From Shinella yambaruensis (GTDB lineage Bacteria > Pseudomonadota > Alphaproteobacteria > Rhizobiales > Rhizobiaceae), in contig NZ_JALJCK010000008.1 in NCBI RefSeq assembly GCF_022899355.1, forward strand, positions 1-64,000: a stretch of DNA of 64,000 nucleotides. Direction: 5' to 3'. The translations under genes were made by a program, and so were the position numbers. The stretch's first letter is position 1. Every line of letters starts with the position of its first letter. A model generated the notes under the pieces. It was not told the DNA's origin and searched no databases. It saw only the letters and a list, made by a program, of their open reading frames with translations. Below, piece by piece: positions 24,358-31,239 of this stretch.

Positions 24358-25689
24358 ATGTCACGCAATCAGGACCCCGCCTTCTGGGCGGCCGCACGCA
24401 AGCACCTCATCCGCTATGGCGGAAGCTTCGACCCGGCCATCATCGAGCGTGCCGAGGGCTGCTTCGTCTTCGATGCCGACGAGCGCCCGATCCTCGATTT
24501 CACCTCCGGGCAGATGAGCGCGCTCGTCGGCCATTCCCATCCGCACATCGTCGCCACCGTCCAGCGCCAGATGGGCGCGGTGGCGCATCTCTTCAGCGGC
24601 ATGCTGTCGCGGCCCGTCGTGGACCTTGCCGCGCGGCTGGCGGCGCTGGCGCCGGGGCTCGACCGGGTCATGCTGCTGTCGACCGGCGCGGAATCCAACG
24701 AGGCGGCCATCCGCATGGCCAAGCTCGTCACCGGCCGGCACGAGATCGTCGCCTTCTCCAAGAGCTGGCACGGCATGACGGGCGCGGCGAGCTCGGCGAC
24801 CTACAGCGCCGGCCGCAAGGGCTACGGCCCCGCGATGGTCGGCTCGCTCACCATTCCCGCGCCCAACACGTTTCGCCCACGCTTTCGTCATGCCGATGGT
24901 TCGCTGGACTGGAAGACCGAGCTCGACGACGCCTTCGGGCTGATCGACAGCCAGTCGGTCGGCAGCCTCGCCGCCTTCATCGCCGAGCCGATCCTGTCGA
25001 GCGGCGGCATGCTGGAACTGCCGCCCGGCTATCTGGCGGCGCTGAAGGAAAAGTGCCGCGAGCGCGGCATGCTGCTCATCCTCGACGAGGCCCAGACCGG
25101 CATCGGCCGCACGGGCACCATGTTCGCCTTCCAGCGCGACGGCGTGACGCCGGACATCCTGACGCTCTCCAAGACGATCGGCGCCGGCCTGCCTCTGGCG
25201 GCCGTCATGACGACGGCGGAGATCGAGGACATCGCCCATGAGAAGGGCTACCTCTTCTACACGACCCATGTCTCCGATCCGCTGCCGGCGGCCGTGGGCC
25301 TCGCCGTGCTCGACATCGTGGAGGAGGAAGGGCTGGTCGCGCGCGCCGGGCGGCTCGGCAGCCGGCTGTTCGAGGGACTGTCGCAGCTCAAGCAGCGCTT
25401 CGACTGCGTCGGCGACGTGCGCGGCCGCGGGCTGATGCTCGGCGTCGAGATCGTCAATCCCGACCGCAGCGCCGACCACGAGCTCGGCAGCCGCATCGCC
25501 GCCGAAGCCTTCCGACGCGGGCTCAGCATGAACATCGTCAAGCTGCCCGGCATGGGCGGCGTGTTCCGCATCGCGCCGCCGCTGACGATTTCCGAGGAGG
25601 AGATCGACCTTGGCCTGCGCATCATCGCCCAGTCCATCGAGGTGGCATCCGTCTCCGGTGCCCGCGCGCCGGGCATTGCGGCTGAATAG
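24358..25689 (+). CDS. dgdA: 2,2-dialkylglycine decarboxylase (PLP, class III aminotransferase fold)
   Basis: Decarboxylation-dependent transamination of 2,2-dialkylglycines such as 2-aminoisobutyrate or isovaline, giving a ketone, CO2 and alanine from pyruvate. It has 443 residues. Key residues fall at or next to the Burkholderia enzyme numbers: Gln52 in [14 protein letters not shown], Trp137 in SKSWHGMTG, Ser214/215 in PILSSGGM, the PLP lysine Lys272 in [14 protein letters not shown] and Arg404 in [20 protein letters not shown] is the PLP-ring Asp motif. Gln52 and the small Ser pair set this enzyme apart from ordinary aminotransferases. It leads an operon with a B12 mutase whose start is only 13 bases downstream. 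Confidence 0.85.
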
Positions 25690-25702
25690 GGAGAAAGAGC
25701 GG

Positions 25703-26161
25703 ATGCGCGACGCGAACCTTGCCGGCGAAAGCCTTTCCACCGGGCCGGCCGAGGCCCCCGACACCATCCGCGTCCTCGTCGCCAAGCTCGGCCTCGACGG
25801 CCATGACCGGGGCGCCAAGGTGGTGGCGCGCATCCTGCGCGATGCGGGCATGGAGGTCGTCTATACCGGCCTCTACAAGACGCCGAAGGACGTCGTGCAG
25901 GCGGCGATCCAGGAGGACGTCGACGTCATCGGCGTCAGCCTGCTCTCCGGCTCGCATGTCCCGCTGTTCCGCGAACTCGGCCGCTGTCTGCGCGAGGAGG
26001 GGGCCGGGCACATCCTCGTTGTCGCCGGCGGGGTCATTCCCGAGCAGGACTATCCCGCGCTGCTGGAGGGCGGCGTCGATGCCATCGTGCCCCAGGAGGC
26101 CCGTTCCGACCTGATCGTCACGACGATCACCGATCTCGTCACGGCGCGTGGCCGGATATGA
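25703..26161 (+). CDS. Acyl-CoA mutase, cobalamin-binding small subunit (HcmB/IcmB-like)
   Basis: A 152-residue B12-binding domain that would pair with the large subunit at 27147. It contains [16 protein letters not shown] with His34 as lower cobalt ligand, [13 protein letters not shown] and [20 protein letters not shown], all hallmarks of the Rossmann-like cobalamin domain. Start ATG 25703, 10 bases after a GGGAGAAAG site. Its stop overlaps the MeaB start (ATGA). The split into small and large subunits is characteristic of isobutyryl-CoA and 2-hydroxyisobutyryl-CoA mutases, unlike the one-piece methylmalonyl-CoA mutase 5 kb upstream. Confidence 0.88.
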
Positions 26162-28855: not shown

Positions 28856-29605
28856 ATGAACGAGACTGTCCTTTCCACCCTCGAAGGGCCGATCGCCTGG
28901 ATCACGCTCAACCGGCCGGAGCGGCTGAACGCCATGAACCGGCCGCTCGTCGACGGGCTGATCGCGGCGCTTTCAGCCGCCGAGGCGAACGACGCCGTCC
29001 GCGTCGTCATCCTCCATGGCGCCGGCCGGGCCTTCTGCTCGGGCGACGACCTCAAGGACCTCGACGCGCAGACCGCGTCGGAGGCGGAGACGCAGGACTG
29101 GGTGGAGGCCATCCAGGCCGTCACGCGCCACATCATGCGTTCGCGCAAGATCGTGATCGCCGCCGTGCACGGCTGGTGCGTCGGCGGCGCACTGGAATGG
29201 GCGATCAACTGCGACTTCCGGCTCTTTGCCGAGAACACCCGCTGGTTCTTCCCCGAGGTCGGCTACGGCCTGTTCGTGACGGGCGGCGTGACCGCGCTCC
29301 TGACCAAGCAGGTCGGCCCGCAGGTCACCAAGGAACTGCTCATCCTCGGCGAACGCCACGATGCGCAAAAGGCGCTGGAGACCGGCATCGCCTGGAAGGT
29401 CGTGCCGGACGATACCTTGCTCGATGCGGCCCGGCAGCTCGCCCTTGCGATCGCCAGCCGTCCGGCGGACGCGGTGGCGGATGTCAAGCGCGCCATCAAT
29501 GACGGCTTTCATTCCTCCCTCGAAGAGGCGATGGCGCAGGAGACGGCGGCCACGGTCCGCGGCTTCCTCTCCCCCGCGGCGCAGGCAAAGGCAAAAGGGT
29601 TCTGA
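28856..29605 (+). CDS. Enoyl-CoA hydratase/isomerase (crotonase) family protein
   Basis: A 249-residue crotonase. Oxyanion-hole segments are GRAFCSGDDLKDL and HGWCVGGALEWAI. Both hydratase glutamates appear present: Glu in GGALEWA and Glu in WFFPEVGYG. So a true hydratase is more likely than an isomerase or hydrolase. Start ATG 28856, nine bases after the mutase stop. In this operon it could dehydrate or hydrate the product of the mutase (3-hydroxybutyryl-CoA to crotonyl-CoA); this is inference. Confidence 0.85.
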   Translation: MNETVLSTLEGPIAWITLNRPERLNAMNRPLVDGLIAALSAAEANDAVRVVILHGAGRAFCSGDDLKDLDAQTASEAETQDWVEAIQAVTRHIMRSRKIVIAAVHGWCVGGALEWAINCDFRLFAENTRWFFPEVGYGLFVTGGVTALLTKQVGPQVTKELLILGERHDAQKALETGIAWKVVPDDTLLDAARQLALAIASRPADAVADVKRAINDGFHSSLEEAMAQETAATVRGFLSPAAQAKAKGF

Positions 29606-29607
29606 CC

Positions 29608-31239
29608 GTGTCCATCATTCCCGCCTTCCCGTCCCTTTCGCCCGTCCCGGGCCTTCACGACGACGAGATCGAAGAGCGCGTCCTGCCGAAGATCCTCGTC
29701 AGGCAGGCCGAGCGCTTCGGCTCCAGCCCCTTCCTCGACATCTGCGGCCGCACGGCGAGCTTCGAGGAGATGCTGGACCTCACCTGCCGGCTCTCCGGCG
29801 GCCTTCGCCGGCTGGGCGTCGGCCGCGCCGACCGGGTCGCGATGCTGCTGCCCAACTGCCTCGAACTCGTCGCCACCTGGTTCGCCGTCTCCAGCCTCGG
29901 GGCGATCGAGGTGCCGAACAATCCGGGGCTGAAGGGCGACCTGCTCTGCCACAATCTCAACAATTGCGGGGCGGAGGTGCTGGTCGCCGATGCGGCTGCC
30001 CTGCCGGAACTCGCCATCGTGCAGGACCGGCTGCCGGCGCTGCGCACGCTCGTCCTCGTCGGCGCCGATCCCGTAGAGGCGCGCGCGGCGGGGATCCGGA
30101 TCGGCCGCATCCTGCGTTTCGAGGAATGCCTCGCATCGCCCGCGGGCCTCGACCTTTCGGCCGTGCATTACAGCGACCCGATGGCGATCCTTTACACCTC
30201 GGGCACGACGGGCCCGGCCAAGGGCGCGCTGATGTCGCACCACCATTGTTACGCCTGGGCGGCGGCAATGGCCGCCAATCTCGGCTACCGCACGGATGAC
30301 AGCTACTTCTCCGCCCTGCCGCTGTTCCACACCGATGCGCAGATGTTCGGCGTCTACCTGCCGCTGATCTACGGCACCCGGGCAACGCTCGTCGACGGGT
30401 TCAGCGCCTCGCGCTTCTGGGCGCAGGTGCGCGACAGCGGCGCGACGGCAACCAACCTTCTCGGCGCCATGGCCGTCATCCTCCTGCGCGCGCCGCCGGA
30501 GGCGCGCGACGGCGGCAATCCGGTGCGGATCTGCCAGTGCATTCCCATGGTGCCGGACAAGGCGGCGTTCGAGAAACGCTTCGGCATGCGCCTCGTCACC
30601 GGCTACGGCCAGACGGAGACCAGCTTCGTGACGCTCGACACCGTCGACGACACGAGGCCGGGCTCCTGCGGCAGGGCGCATCCCGACTGGGAGGTGGCCG
30701 TCGTCGACGACAGGGACCGCCCGCTGCCGCCCGGCAGCATCGGCGAGATCGTCTCTCGTCCGAAGAAGAGCTGGAGCATGTTCTCCGGCTACTATCGCGC
30801 CGAGGCCAAGACGGTCGAGACGCTGCGCAATCTCTGGTATCATTCGGGTGATGCCGGCGTGATGGACGCGGACGGCTGGCTCTACTTCAAGCACCGGCTG
30901 AACGAGGCGATCCGCCGCCGCGGCGAGAACATCTCCGCCTACGAGGTGGAGACGCTGGCCGAGCAGCATCCCGACATCGTCGAAAGCGCCGCCTTCGGCA
31001 TCGCCTCCGAGTTCACCGAGGAGGACATCATGGTGGTGGCCTTCCGCCGCGCCGGCTCGACGCTCGATGCGGCCGGCCTGCTTGCGCATTTCCGGGCGAA
31101 CGCGCCGCGCCACATGGTGCCGCGTTATATCGAGATCACCGACGCGCCGCTGCCGCGCACGCCGACGGAAAAGGTGGCGCGCAGCGTGCTGCGCCAGCGC
31201 GGCCTCGGCCCGGCGACCTTCGACCGGGGATCGCGCTAG
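29608..31239 (+). CDS. Acyl-CoA synthetase (AMP-forming), CaiC-like
   Basis: ATP-dependent acid:CoA ligase of 543 residues. The P-loop is ILYTSGTTGPAKGALMSH, the adenine motif TGYGQTETS, the ribose Asp motif LWYHSGDAGVMDADGWL, the hinge HRLNEAIRRRGENISAYEVE and the C-terminal catalytic lysine region PRTPTEKVAR. GTG start two bases after the crotonase stop. It is the last gene of the operon and would activate the free acid (for instance 2-hydroxyisobutyrate) to the CoA ester used by the mutase. HcmA clusters in other bacteria also contain such a ligase. Confidence 0.85.
   Translation: MSIIPAFPSLSPVPGLHDDEIEERVLPKILVRQAERFGSSPFLDICGRTASFEEMLDLTCRLSGGLRRLGVGRADRVAMLLPNCLELVATWFAVSSLGAIEVPNNPGLKGDLLCHNLNNCGAEVLVADAAALPELAIVQDRLPALRTLVLVGADPVEARAAGIRIGRILRFEECLASPAGLDLSAVHYSDPMAILYTSGTTGPAKGALMSHHHCYAWAAAMAANLGYRTDDSYFSALPLFHTDAQMFGVYLPLIYGTRATLVDGFSASRFWAQVRDSGATATNLLGAMAVILLRAPPEARDGGNPVRICQCIPMVPDKAAFEKRFGMRLVTGYGQTETSFVTLDTVDDTRPGSCGRAHPDWEVAVVDDRDRPLPPGSIGEIVSRPKKSWSMFSGYYRAEAKTVETLRNLWYHSGDAGVMDADGWLYFKHRLNEAIRRRGENISAYEVETLAEQHPDIVESAAFGIASEFTEEDIMVVAFRRAGSTLDAAGLLAHFRANAPRHMVPRYIEITDAPLPRTPTEKVARSVLRQRGLGPATFDRGSR

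Follow-up and report, generated by a model that had tools for sequence, protein, structure and literature searches.

Genes for 2,2-dialkylglycine decarboxylase (DgdA) of the Burkholderia cepacia type stand in simple pairs, dgdR-dgdA, in which the decarboxylase gene is divergent from that of a LysR regulator. The 2-hydroxyisobutyrate (2-HIBA) mutase cluster of Aquincola and Methylibium PM1 holds the split subunits of a B12-dependent mutase, a MeaB-type chaperone (meaH) and the ligase gene hcl; one article names Methylibium PM1 as carrying hcl with the mutase genes and calls the source of the natural substrate of such a pathway "not yet identified" (PMC7176365). A mutase followed by a dehydrogenase is also reported in the acetone degradation of Desulfococcus biacutus and Desulfosarcina cetonica, which combines a thiamine pyrophosphate (TPP)-dependent enzyme with a B12 mutase (PMC7888143). 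Here, we describe an operon of Shinella yambaruensis, located at positions 24358-31239 of a stretch of 64,000 nucleotides (contig NZ_JALJCK010000008.1, positions 1 to 64,000; hereafter the window), in which dgdA and a B12 mutase of the 2-HIBA family occur in one gene set, hinting at a new route for the consumption of branched acids.

With its divergent LysR gene and a DgdA identity of 70-74%, the locus resembled the stand-alone pairs used for comparison (Agrobacterium fabrum, Shinella pfSHIWSC3, Caballeronia and Marinibacterium); unlike these, which have no mutase genes, its dgdA heads a six-gene operon. The split subunits, the MeaB-type chaperone and an Asp at position 117 of HcmA are shared with the Aquincola/PM1 cluster. 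Nevertheless, the operon differed from that cluster in lacking HCL, the known 2-HIBA ligase, in having Val for Ile at position 90 and further fixed changes in the mutase, in the addition of DgdA and another ligase, and in its regulator, a DgdR-like LysR instead of the GntR found in PM1. Unlike the two acetone degraders, the Shinella genome contained no lyase of family NF058623 at the family cut-off.

The six genes, all on the plus strand, encode DgdA (24358-25689), the small, B12-binding mutase subunit (25703-26161), a MeaB-type G-protein chaperone (26158-27150), the large, substrate-binding mutase subunit (27147-28847), a crotonase-fold hydratase/lyase (28856-29605) and a class I acyl-CoA ligase with a GTG start codon (29608-31239); the LysR gene (23408-24265) lies divergently on the minus strand. 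The gene ends read from the sequence agreed with the tight packing described in an earlier, sequence-only reading of this DNA: dgdA and the small subunit gene are 13 bases apart, the small subunit and MeaB genes overlap by 4 bases, as do the MeaB and large subunit genes, and gaps of 8 and 2 bases separate the crotonase gene from its two neighbors. The enzyme identities given in that reading were also borne out. DgdA aligned end to end (residues 1-430) with the solved dialkylglycine decarboxylase 1d7r at 668 bits, the next molecule reaching 216, and retains Gln52, Ser80, Trp137, Met140, Lys272 and Arg404, to which we ascribe roles in this activity; by similarity, its predicted chemistry as a 2,2-dialkylglycine decarboxylase is well supported. 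The top solved match of both mutase subunits was the 2-hydroxyisobutyryl-CoA mutase 4r3u (746 bits to chain A for the large subunit; 144 bits to chain C for the small one, which carries PF02310), and the chaperone passed TIGR00750 with 309 bits against a cut-off of 240.75. The crotonase (PF00378; 51% identical to that of locus L084, see below) has both Glu residues, in GALEWA and FPEVG, which we take to be the catalytic motif. The ligase (PF00501) had a top solved match of 151 bits.

Genome contigs of 84,980 species were scanned with the large subunit; 83 stretches were confirmed and 80 kept, giving 78 loci. By mutase identity these separated into a set of 30 at 80-99% (hereafter the clade) and a set of 48 at 63% or less, and the named loci nearest to the window were those of Shinella granuli (99%) and Shinella sp. 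SUS2 (95%). The regulator gene and the six operon genes were found together in 29 of the 30 clade loci, the exception being L037 from Peristeroidobacter, the lone gammaproteobacterium of the group; LysR, DgdA, crotonase and ligase were each present in the same 29, the small subunit and MeaB in all 30, and the gene order was kept. By contrast, DgdA (at least 50% identity) occurred in none of the other 48 loci, some of which end at contig edges. Class III aminotransferases in four of these (L047, L048, L049 and L053) were only 31-32% like DgdA and were therefore not counted. The clade comprised Shinella, Sinorhizobium, Mesorhizobium, Aminobacter, Phyllobacterium, Labrys, Hoeflea, Brucella/Ochrobactrum, Roseovarius, Pseudogemmobacter (Rhodobacterales) and others. 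The earlier reading had suggested a search for the dgdA-mutase neighborhood in other genomes, with absence from related genomes counting against its proposal; the neighborhood proved to be conserved.

Since the species-wide scan reaches close relatives only, 347 genomes sampled evenly across the order were also examined. The clade mutase (at least 89%) was found in four of them, including that of S. yambaruensis, with dgdA and the ligase (at least 77%) adjoining in each; elsewhere ligase identity did not exceed 41%. Seven genomes had mutases of 57-60%; dgdA, present in 31 genomes at E 1e-170, was in none of these seven. The three positives other than S. yambaruensis coincide in position with L023, L025 and L036, so that this sample adds a denominator and not new cases. 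At genus level (21 genomes), the clade mutase and dgdA were confined to the same four. Of 72,556 plasmid records, 20 carried the clade mutase and the same 20 a DgdA of at least 80% (3 from Shinella, 17 from Sinorhizobium), while 35 further records carried a DgdA of 60-80%; the four such loci examined all had a divergent LysR and no mutase genes. A chance neighborhood was ruled out by the locus counts and the order sample, and the six-gene operon with its divergent LysR is almost certainly conserved as a unit. This conserved combination of DgdA and B12 mutase, plasmid-borne in Shinella and Sinorhizobium, suggests a route by which acids like 2-aminoisobutyrate could supply carbon.

Some copies were irregular. 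L031 (1170-15500) showed the operon twice, inverted, with both ligases shortened (0.60 and 0.58 of the length), probably an assembly artefact of a metagenome-assembled genome. In L044, partial matches to the large subunit (0.70) and crotonase (0.76) at about 10000-12500 reflect a frameshift or assembly error, and in five Sinorhizobium medicae plasmids (H16-H20) the mutase match begins only at residue 31 or 71, a possible sign of a broken gene start.

The large subunit matched mitochondrial methylmalonyl-CoA mutase (MCM) at 473 bits and was 58% identical to its Methylibium PM1 counterpart. Asp120, which we equate with HcmA Asp117, the hydroxyl-orienting residue taken as a mark of 2-hydroxyisobutyryl-CoA mutase, was present in all 30 readable clade sequences, that of the window included. 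Together with the nearest match, this points to a 2-hydroxyisobutyryl-CoA ancestry, and the mutase is placed by descent, as its sequence suggests, on that side of the family; the earlier assignment to the HcmA type thus appears sound at family level. Val93 was likewise found in 30/30, at what is presumably HcmA position 90, where Ile would be expected; among 50 other mutases the residue was Ile in 45, Phe in three and Val in two (L045 and L084, both with HCL). MCM has a carboxylate pocket of the Tyr89/Arg207 type. Tyr and Arg are found in the window's own MCM (18240-20378), whereas the operon's large subunit has Val93 and Gln211, the latter presumably HcmA Gln208. A plain methylmalonyl- or isobutyryl-CoA mutase was ruled out by these pocket residues and the bit scores.

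A FastTree phylogeny was built from 44 large subunits out of 82 collected, with L115 and L116 as reference mutases and the window's MCM among them. It placed L045 and L084 as the sister group of the DgdA clade, with a support of 1.0 for clade and sisters together and of 0.63 for the clade alone. Both sister loci contain genes for a GntR regulator, the small subunit, HCL, MeaB, the large subunit, a crotonase (51-52% to that of the window) and a short-chain dehydrogenase/reductase (SDR), without DgdA. Hence, the crotonase and Val93 are older than the link with DgdA. Judged from this comparison, the DgdA branch is one on which HCL and GntR were apparently replaced by another ligase and a DgdR-like LysR, with DgdA added. 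At three mutase positions that are invariant in the 50 others, a change is fixed on it (Leu109Met, Glu251Asp, Ala303Cys), and at two more nearly so (Ile204Pro, Phe332Val); Asp120, Gln211 and His248 were unaltered and, like Val93, are common to the clade and its HCL-linked sister loci.

We propose, at a probability of roughly 0.43, that the locus is a DgdR-controlled catabolic unit for C4-C5 alpha,alpha-dialkyl acids, those that enter its mutase branch carrying a hydroxyl group on the alpha carbon. It may have arisen by the setting of a classical dgdR-dgdA pair before a 2-hydroxyisobutyryl-CoA mutase module. In one branch, DgdA would convert 2-aminoisobutyrate or isovaline with pyruvate to acetone or butanone, CO2 and alanine, yielding nitrogen and clearing a toxic amino acid, an activity established elsewhere for the family and predicted here from similarity. 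In the putative second branch, the ligase would form the CoA ester of an alpha-methyl acid with a substituent X on the same carbon, and the B12 mutase, maintained by MeaB, would shift the CoA-carbonyl group to give the 3-X-acyl-CoA. The crotonase, an SDR dehydrogenase and a thiolase, the last two encoded next to the operon in some genomes and not in the window, would then lead through crotonyl- or 3-hydroxybutyryl-CoA and acetoacetyl-CoA to two acetyl-CoA. That this branch linearises an alpha-methyl, alpha-X acyl-CoA is likely as far as the class of substrate goes. With X = OH, the substrates would be 2-HIBA and its C5 homologue, the acid analogue being met along with the amino acid. Hydroxyl and amino group seem nearly balanced as X, the hydroxyl being narrowly favored.

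Counted in favor of the hydroxyl were, besides the match to 4r3u and Asp120, L045 and L084, with their HCL, similar crotonase, SDR and identical Val93, and the neighborhood of L037. This locus is nested in the mutase clade (support 0.94) and lacks counterparts of the operon's DgdA, LysR, crotonase and ligase. Its mutase is followed by a 3-hydroxybutyryl-CoA dehydrogenase (NF004474, 418 bits against a cut-off of 408). Next comes a 2-hydroxyacyl-CoA lyase, encoded in the reverse direction (658 bits against a cut-off of 600; 453 bits to 7pt1), and after it another ligase that is 28% like that of the window; a clade mutase is thus found beside 2-hydroxyacyl-CoA chemistry. Furthermore, an SDR and a thiolase adjoined the operon in 12 of the 30 clade loci. 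They would fit a 3-hydroxybutyryl-CoA product, and equally the crotonyl-CoA of an amino route. According to annotation, a TPP-dependent enzyme and a 3-hydroxybutyryl-CoA dehydrogenase lie behind the Methylibium PM1 cluster (L116, 9577-13857).

The co-occurrence of lyase and mutase in L037 would also suit a scheme in which DgdA feeds the mutase: a lyase whose gene lies elsewhere would condense the acetone from DgdA with formyl-CoA, giving 2-hydroxyisobutyryl-CoA in the manner of Desulfococcus. The later steps, mutase and dehydrogenase, would then be those described for D. biacutus and D. cetonica (PMC7888143). We consider this very improbable. NF058623, the one lyase family searched for throughout, exceeded its cut-off in one of 32 genomes (L035 left out), that of L037. 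The operon's ligase would be superfluous, and in 11 of 29 genomes with the DgdA operon, that of S. yambaruensis among them, the gamma subunit of acetone carboxylase gave a strong match instead. For the S. yambaruensis genome, 9 of 16 TPP-domain matches were scanned against NCBIfam and the whole genome was then searched with NF058623, the best match being 227.5 bits against the cut-off of 600; a lyase-fed acetone route in Shinella was therefore not supported. Its acetone carboxylase subunit is encoded on the same contig, outside the window. As this subunit was strong in 11, weak in 3 and absent in 15 of the 29 genomes (the L035 genome was left out), acetone carboxylase was refuted as a constant partner of the operon. 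Given this patchy occurrence of carboxylase and lyase, DgdA may, by analogy with its yeast relatives, serve mainly nitrogen supply and detoxification. 2-Aminoisobutyrate is released from fungal peptaibols, and the yeast relatives of DgdA make its nitrogen available while forming acetone (PMC10169451).

Regulation and transport pointed to amino acids. The LysR protein was 47-50% identical to the LysRs beside stand-alone dgdA (4/4 compared), against 23% for a control LysR, in line with its earlier description as DgdR-like. In the 92-base intergenic region, TATCAA[ATG]TTTAC was conserved in the window and 29 loci (30/30, against at most 1/30 in 500 letter shuffles), a count that is not independent because the clade members are related. 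Conservation there marks a candidate LysR operator/promoter element, TTATATC-spacer-TATCAATTTTAC (24277-24308, no strand assigned). The inverted repeat TTGATA..TATCAA also precedes dgdA of A. fabrum and was unclear before the three other stand-alone genes (1/4). Additionally, a substrate-binding protein of an amino-acid ATP-binding cassette transporter (22120-23238, plus strand) adjoined the operon, at 45% identity or more, in 26/30 clade loci. It matched 3ip5, which we take to be Atu2422, at 551 bits, and has Asp in 27/27 sequences where the PEGV motif of leucine-binding protein has the Glu that presumably binds ammonium. Atu2422 is described in a review as serving with the Bra transporter in the uptake of gamma-aminobutyric acid, proline, alanine and valine (PMC5924552). 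The LysR type and the adjoining binding protein point to 2-aminoisobutyrate-type amino acids, and we hold with good confidence that the operon answers to them. The earlier proposal of a dedicated dialkyl-acid route is supported in its neighborhood, mutase family and LysR; the binding protein and the constant absence of HCL lay beyond what that reading could see.

The amino-acid type of both regulator and binding protein is one of several findings that weigh against the hydroxy acid. HCL (at least 40% identity to the L084 protein, itself 59% identical to the Methylibium PM1 cluster ligase) was found in none of the 30 clade loci against 40 of the 48 others, some of them cut by contig ends, and another class I ligase occupies its place. 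The branch-fixed mutase changes may mean an altered substrate, Asp251 among them, which lies three residues past His248 (31/31 against Glu in 50/50); 43 positions pass the filter for such changes, so the location of any single one is weak evidence. An SDR and thiolase of the kind beside other operons were absent from the window, and no supplier of 2-HIBA was found. Plant cyanohydrins as a shared source of 2-HIBA and 2-aminoisobutyrate were no more than an idea, no nitrilase being found among the annotated neighbors on two annotated clade plasmids. Finally, DgdA and the mutase had been read as parts of one route; they share the operon, but the ketone product of DgdA does not enter the ligase-mutase branch.

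An amino group as X we regard as a serious, still tentative, alternative. The ligase would activate 2-aminoisobutyrate or isovaline, the mutase would convert 2-aminoisobutyryl-CoA to 3-aminobutyryl-CoA and the crotonase would remove ammonia to give crotonyl-CoA, while DgdA would be a quick, parallel and carbon-losing branch for nitrogen and detoxification beside a mutase route retaining all four carbons. A single substrate would then account for the regulator, with its operator-like element common to A. fabrum dgdA, the binding protein with its conserved acidic residue, the ligase exchange, the mutase, whose substitutions are fixed on exactly the DgdA branch, and the crotonase. In the ligase, Asp243 of the A4 motif, which we assume to line the acyl pocket, was found in the window and all 29 loci (30/30). 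An Asp occupies the same position in E. coli carnitine-CoA ligase CaiC, likewise a class I acyl-CoA ligase, which is only 31% identical and belongs to a different operon. CaiC acts on trimethylammonium compounds. Asp243 is, however, not unique: among 11 non-clade ligases (drawn from plasmid matches, L051 and CaiC, with five remoter ones of 25-29% left out), the residue was Asp in three, CaiC included, Asn in five, L051 included, Gly in two and Met in one. The Asn of L051 favors the amino acid, as that ligase, a 41% relative, stands beside a mutase/lyase cluster. Against it, the pocket residues Val93, Asp120, Gln211 and His248 are shared with the HCL-linked sisters, one fixed change near the catalytic His may be chance among 43, L037 adjoins a 2-hydroxyacyl-CoA lyase, DgdA would compete for the substrate and we know of no crotonase-fold ammonia lyase of such a kind. 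No paper on a dgdA-mutase operon or an aminoisobutyryl-CoA mutase was found among the titles and abstract openings of open-licence PubMed Central articles, for one search among 25 of 236 matches; PMC8706239 proved to be unrelated. A 2-aminoisobutyryl-CoA mutase pathway, if true, would be new chemistry. The operon offers one of two things, a pointer to what the 2-HIBA-type pathway naturally acts on or a substrate new to acyl-CoA mutases.

L051 itself (1-9000, Mycobacterium sp. NAZ190054) has two neighboring B12 mutase clusters, one with HCL. The other holds the 41% ligase, a mutase whose two marker residues are Val and Asp, an SDR resembling that of L027 (57%) and a gene resembling the L037 lyase (49%).

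Just upstream of the operon, the window contains genes for a carboxyltransferase, a biotin carboxylase with a PCC_BT domain, MCM and an epimerase (14305-20787). Such a propionyl-CoA-type carboxylase, MCM and epimerase would be useful for C5 substrates, and the Val at the HcmA Ile90 position leaves room; HcmA I90 variants reportedly have weak pivalyl- and isovaleryl-CoA activity. The second branch might accordingly handle another alpha-branched acid (C5 only, of pivalate or isovalerate type, or isobutyrate), DgdA being a co-regulated passenger. We judge this improbable: the hydroxyl-marking Asp120 is retained throughout the clade, an MCM gene lies within 10 kb of the operon in only 2/30 loci (L018 and L076, both Shinella), and a passenger role leaves the retention of DgdA in 29/30 unexplained.

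An AraC-type regulator gene (20801-21799, minus strand) was associated with the operon in 16/30 clade loci. Directly downstream, at 31387-36238 and outside the conserved unit, lie PrkA-YeaH-SpoVR genes, their names being taken from the Shinella WSC3-e plasmid. Long minus-strand open frames antisense to the ligase (29509-31308) and MCM (18168-20414) genes were taken as an effect of high GC content.

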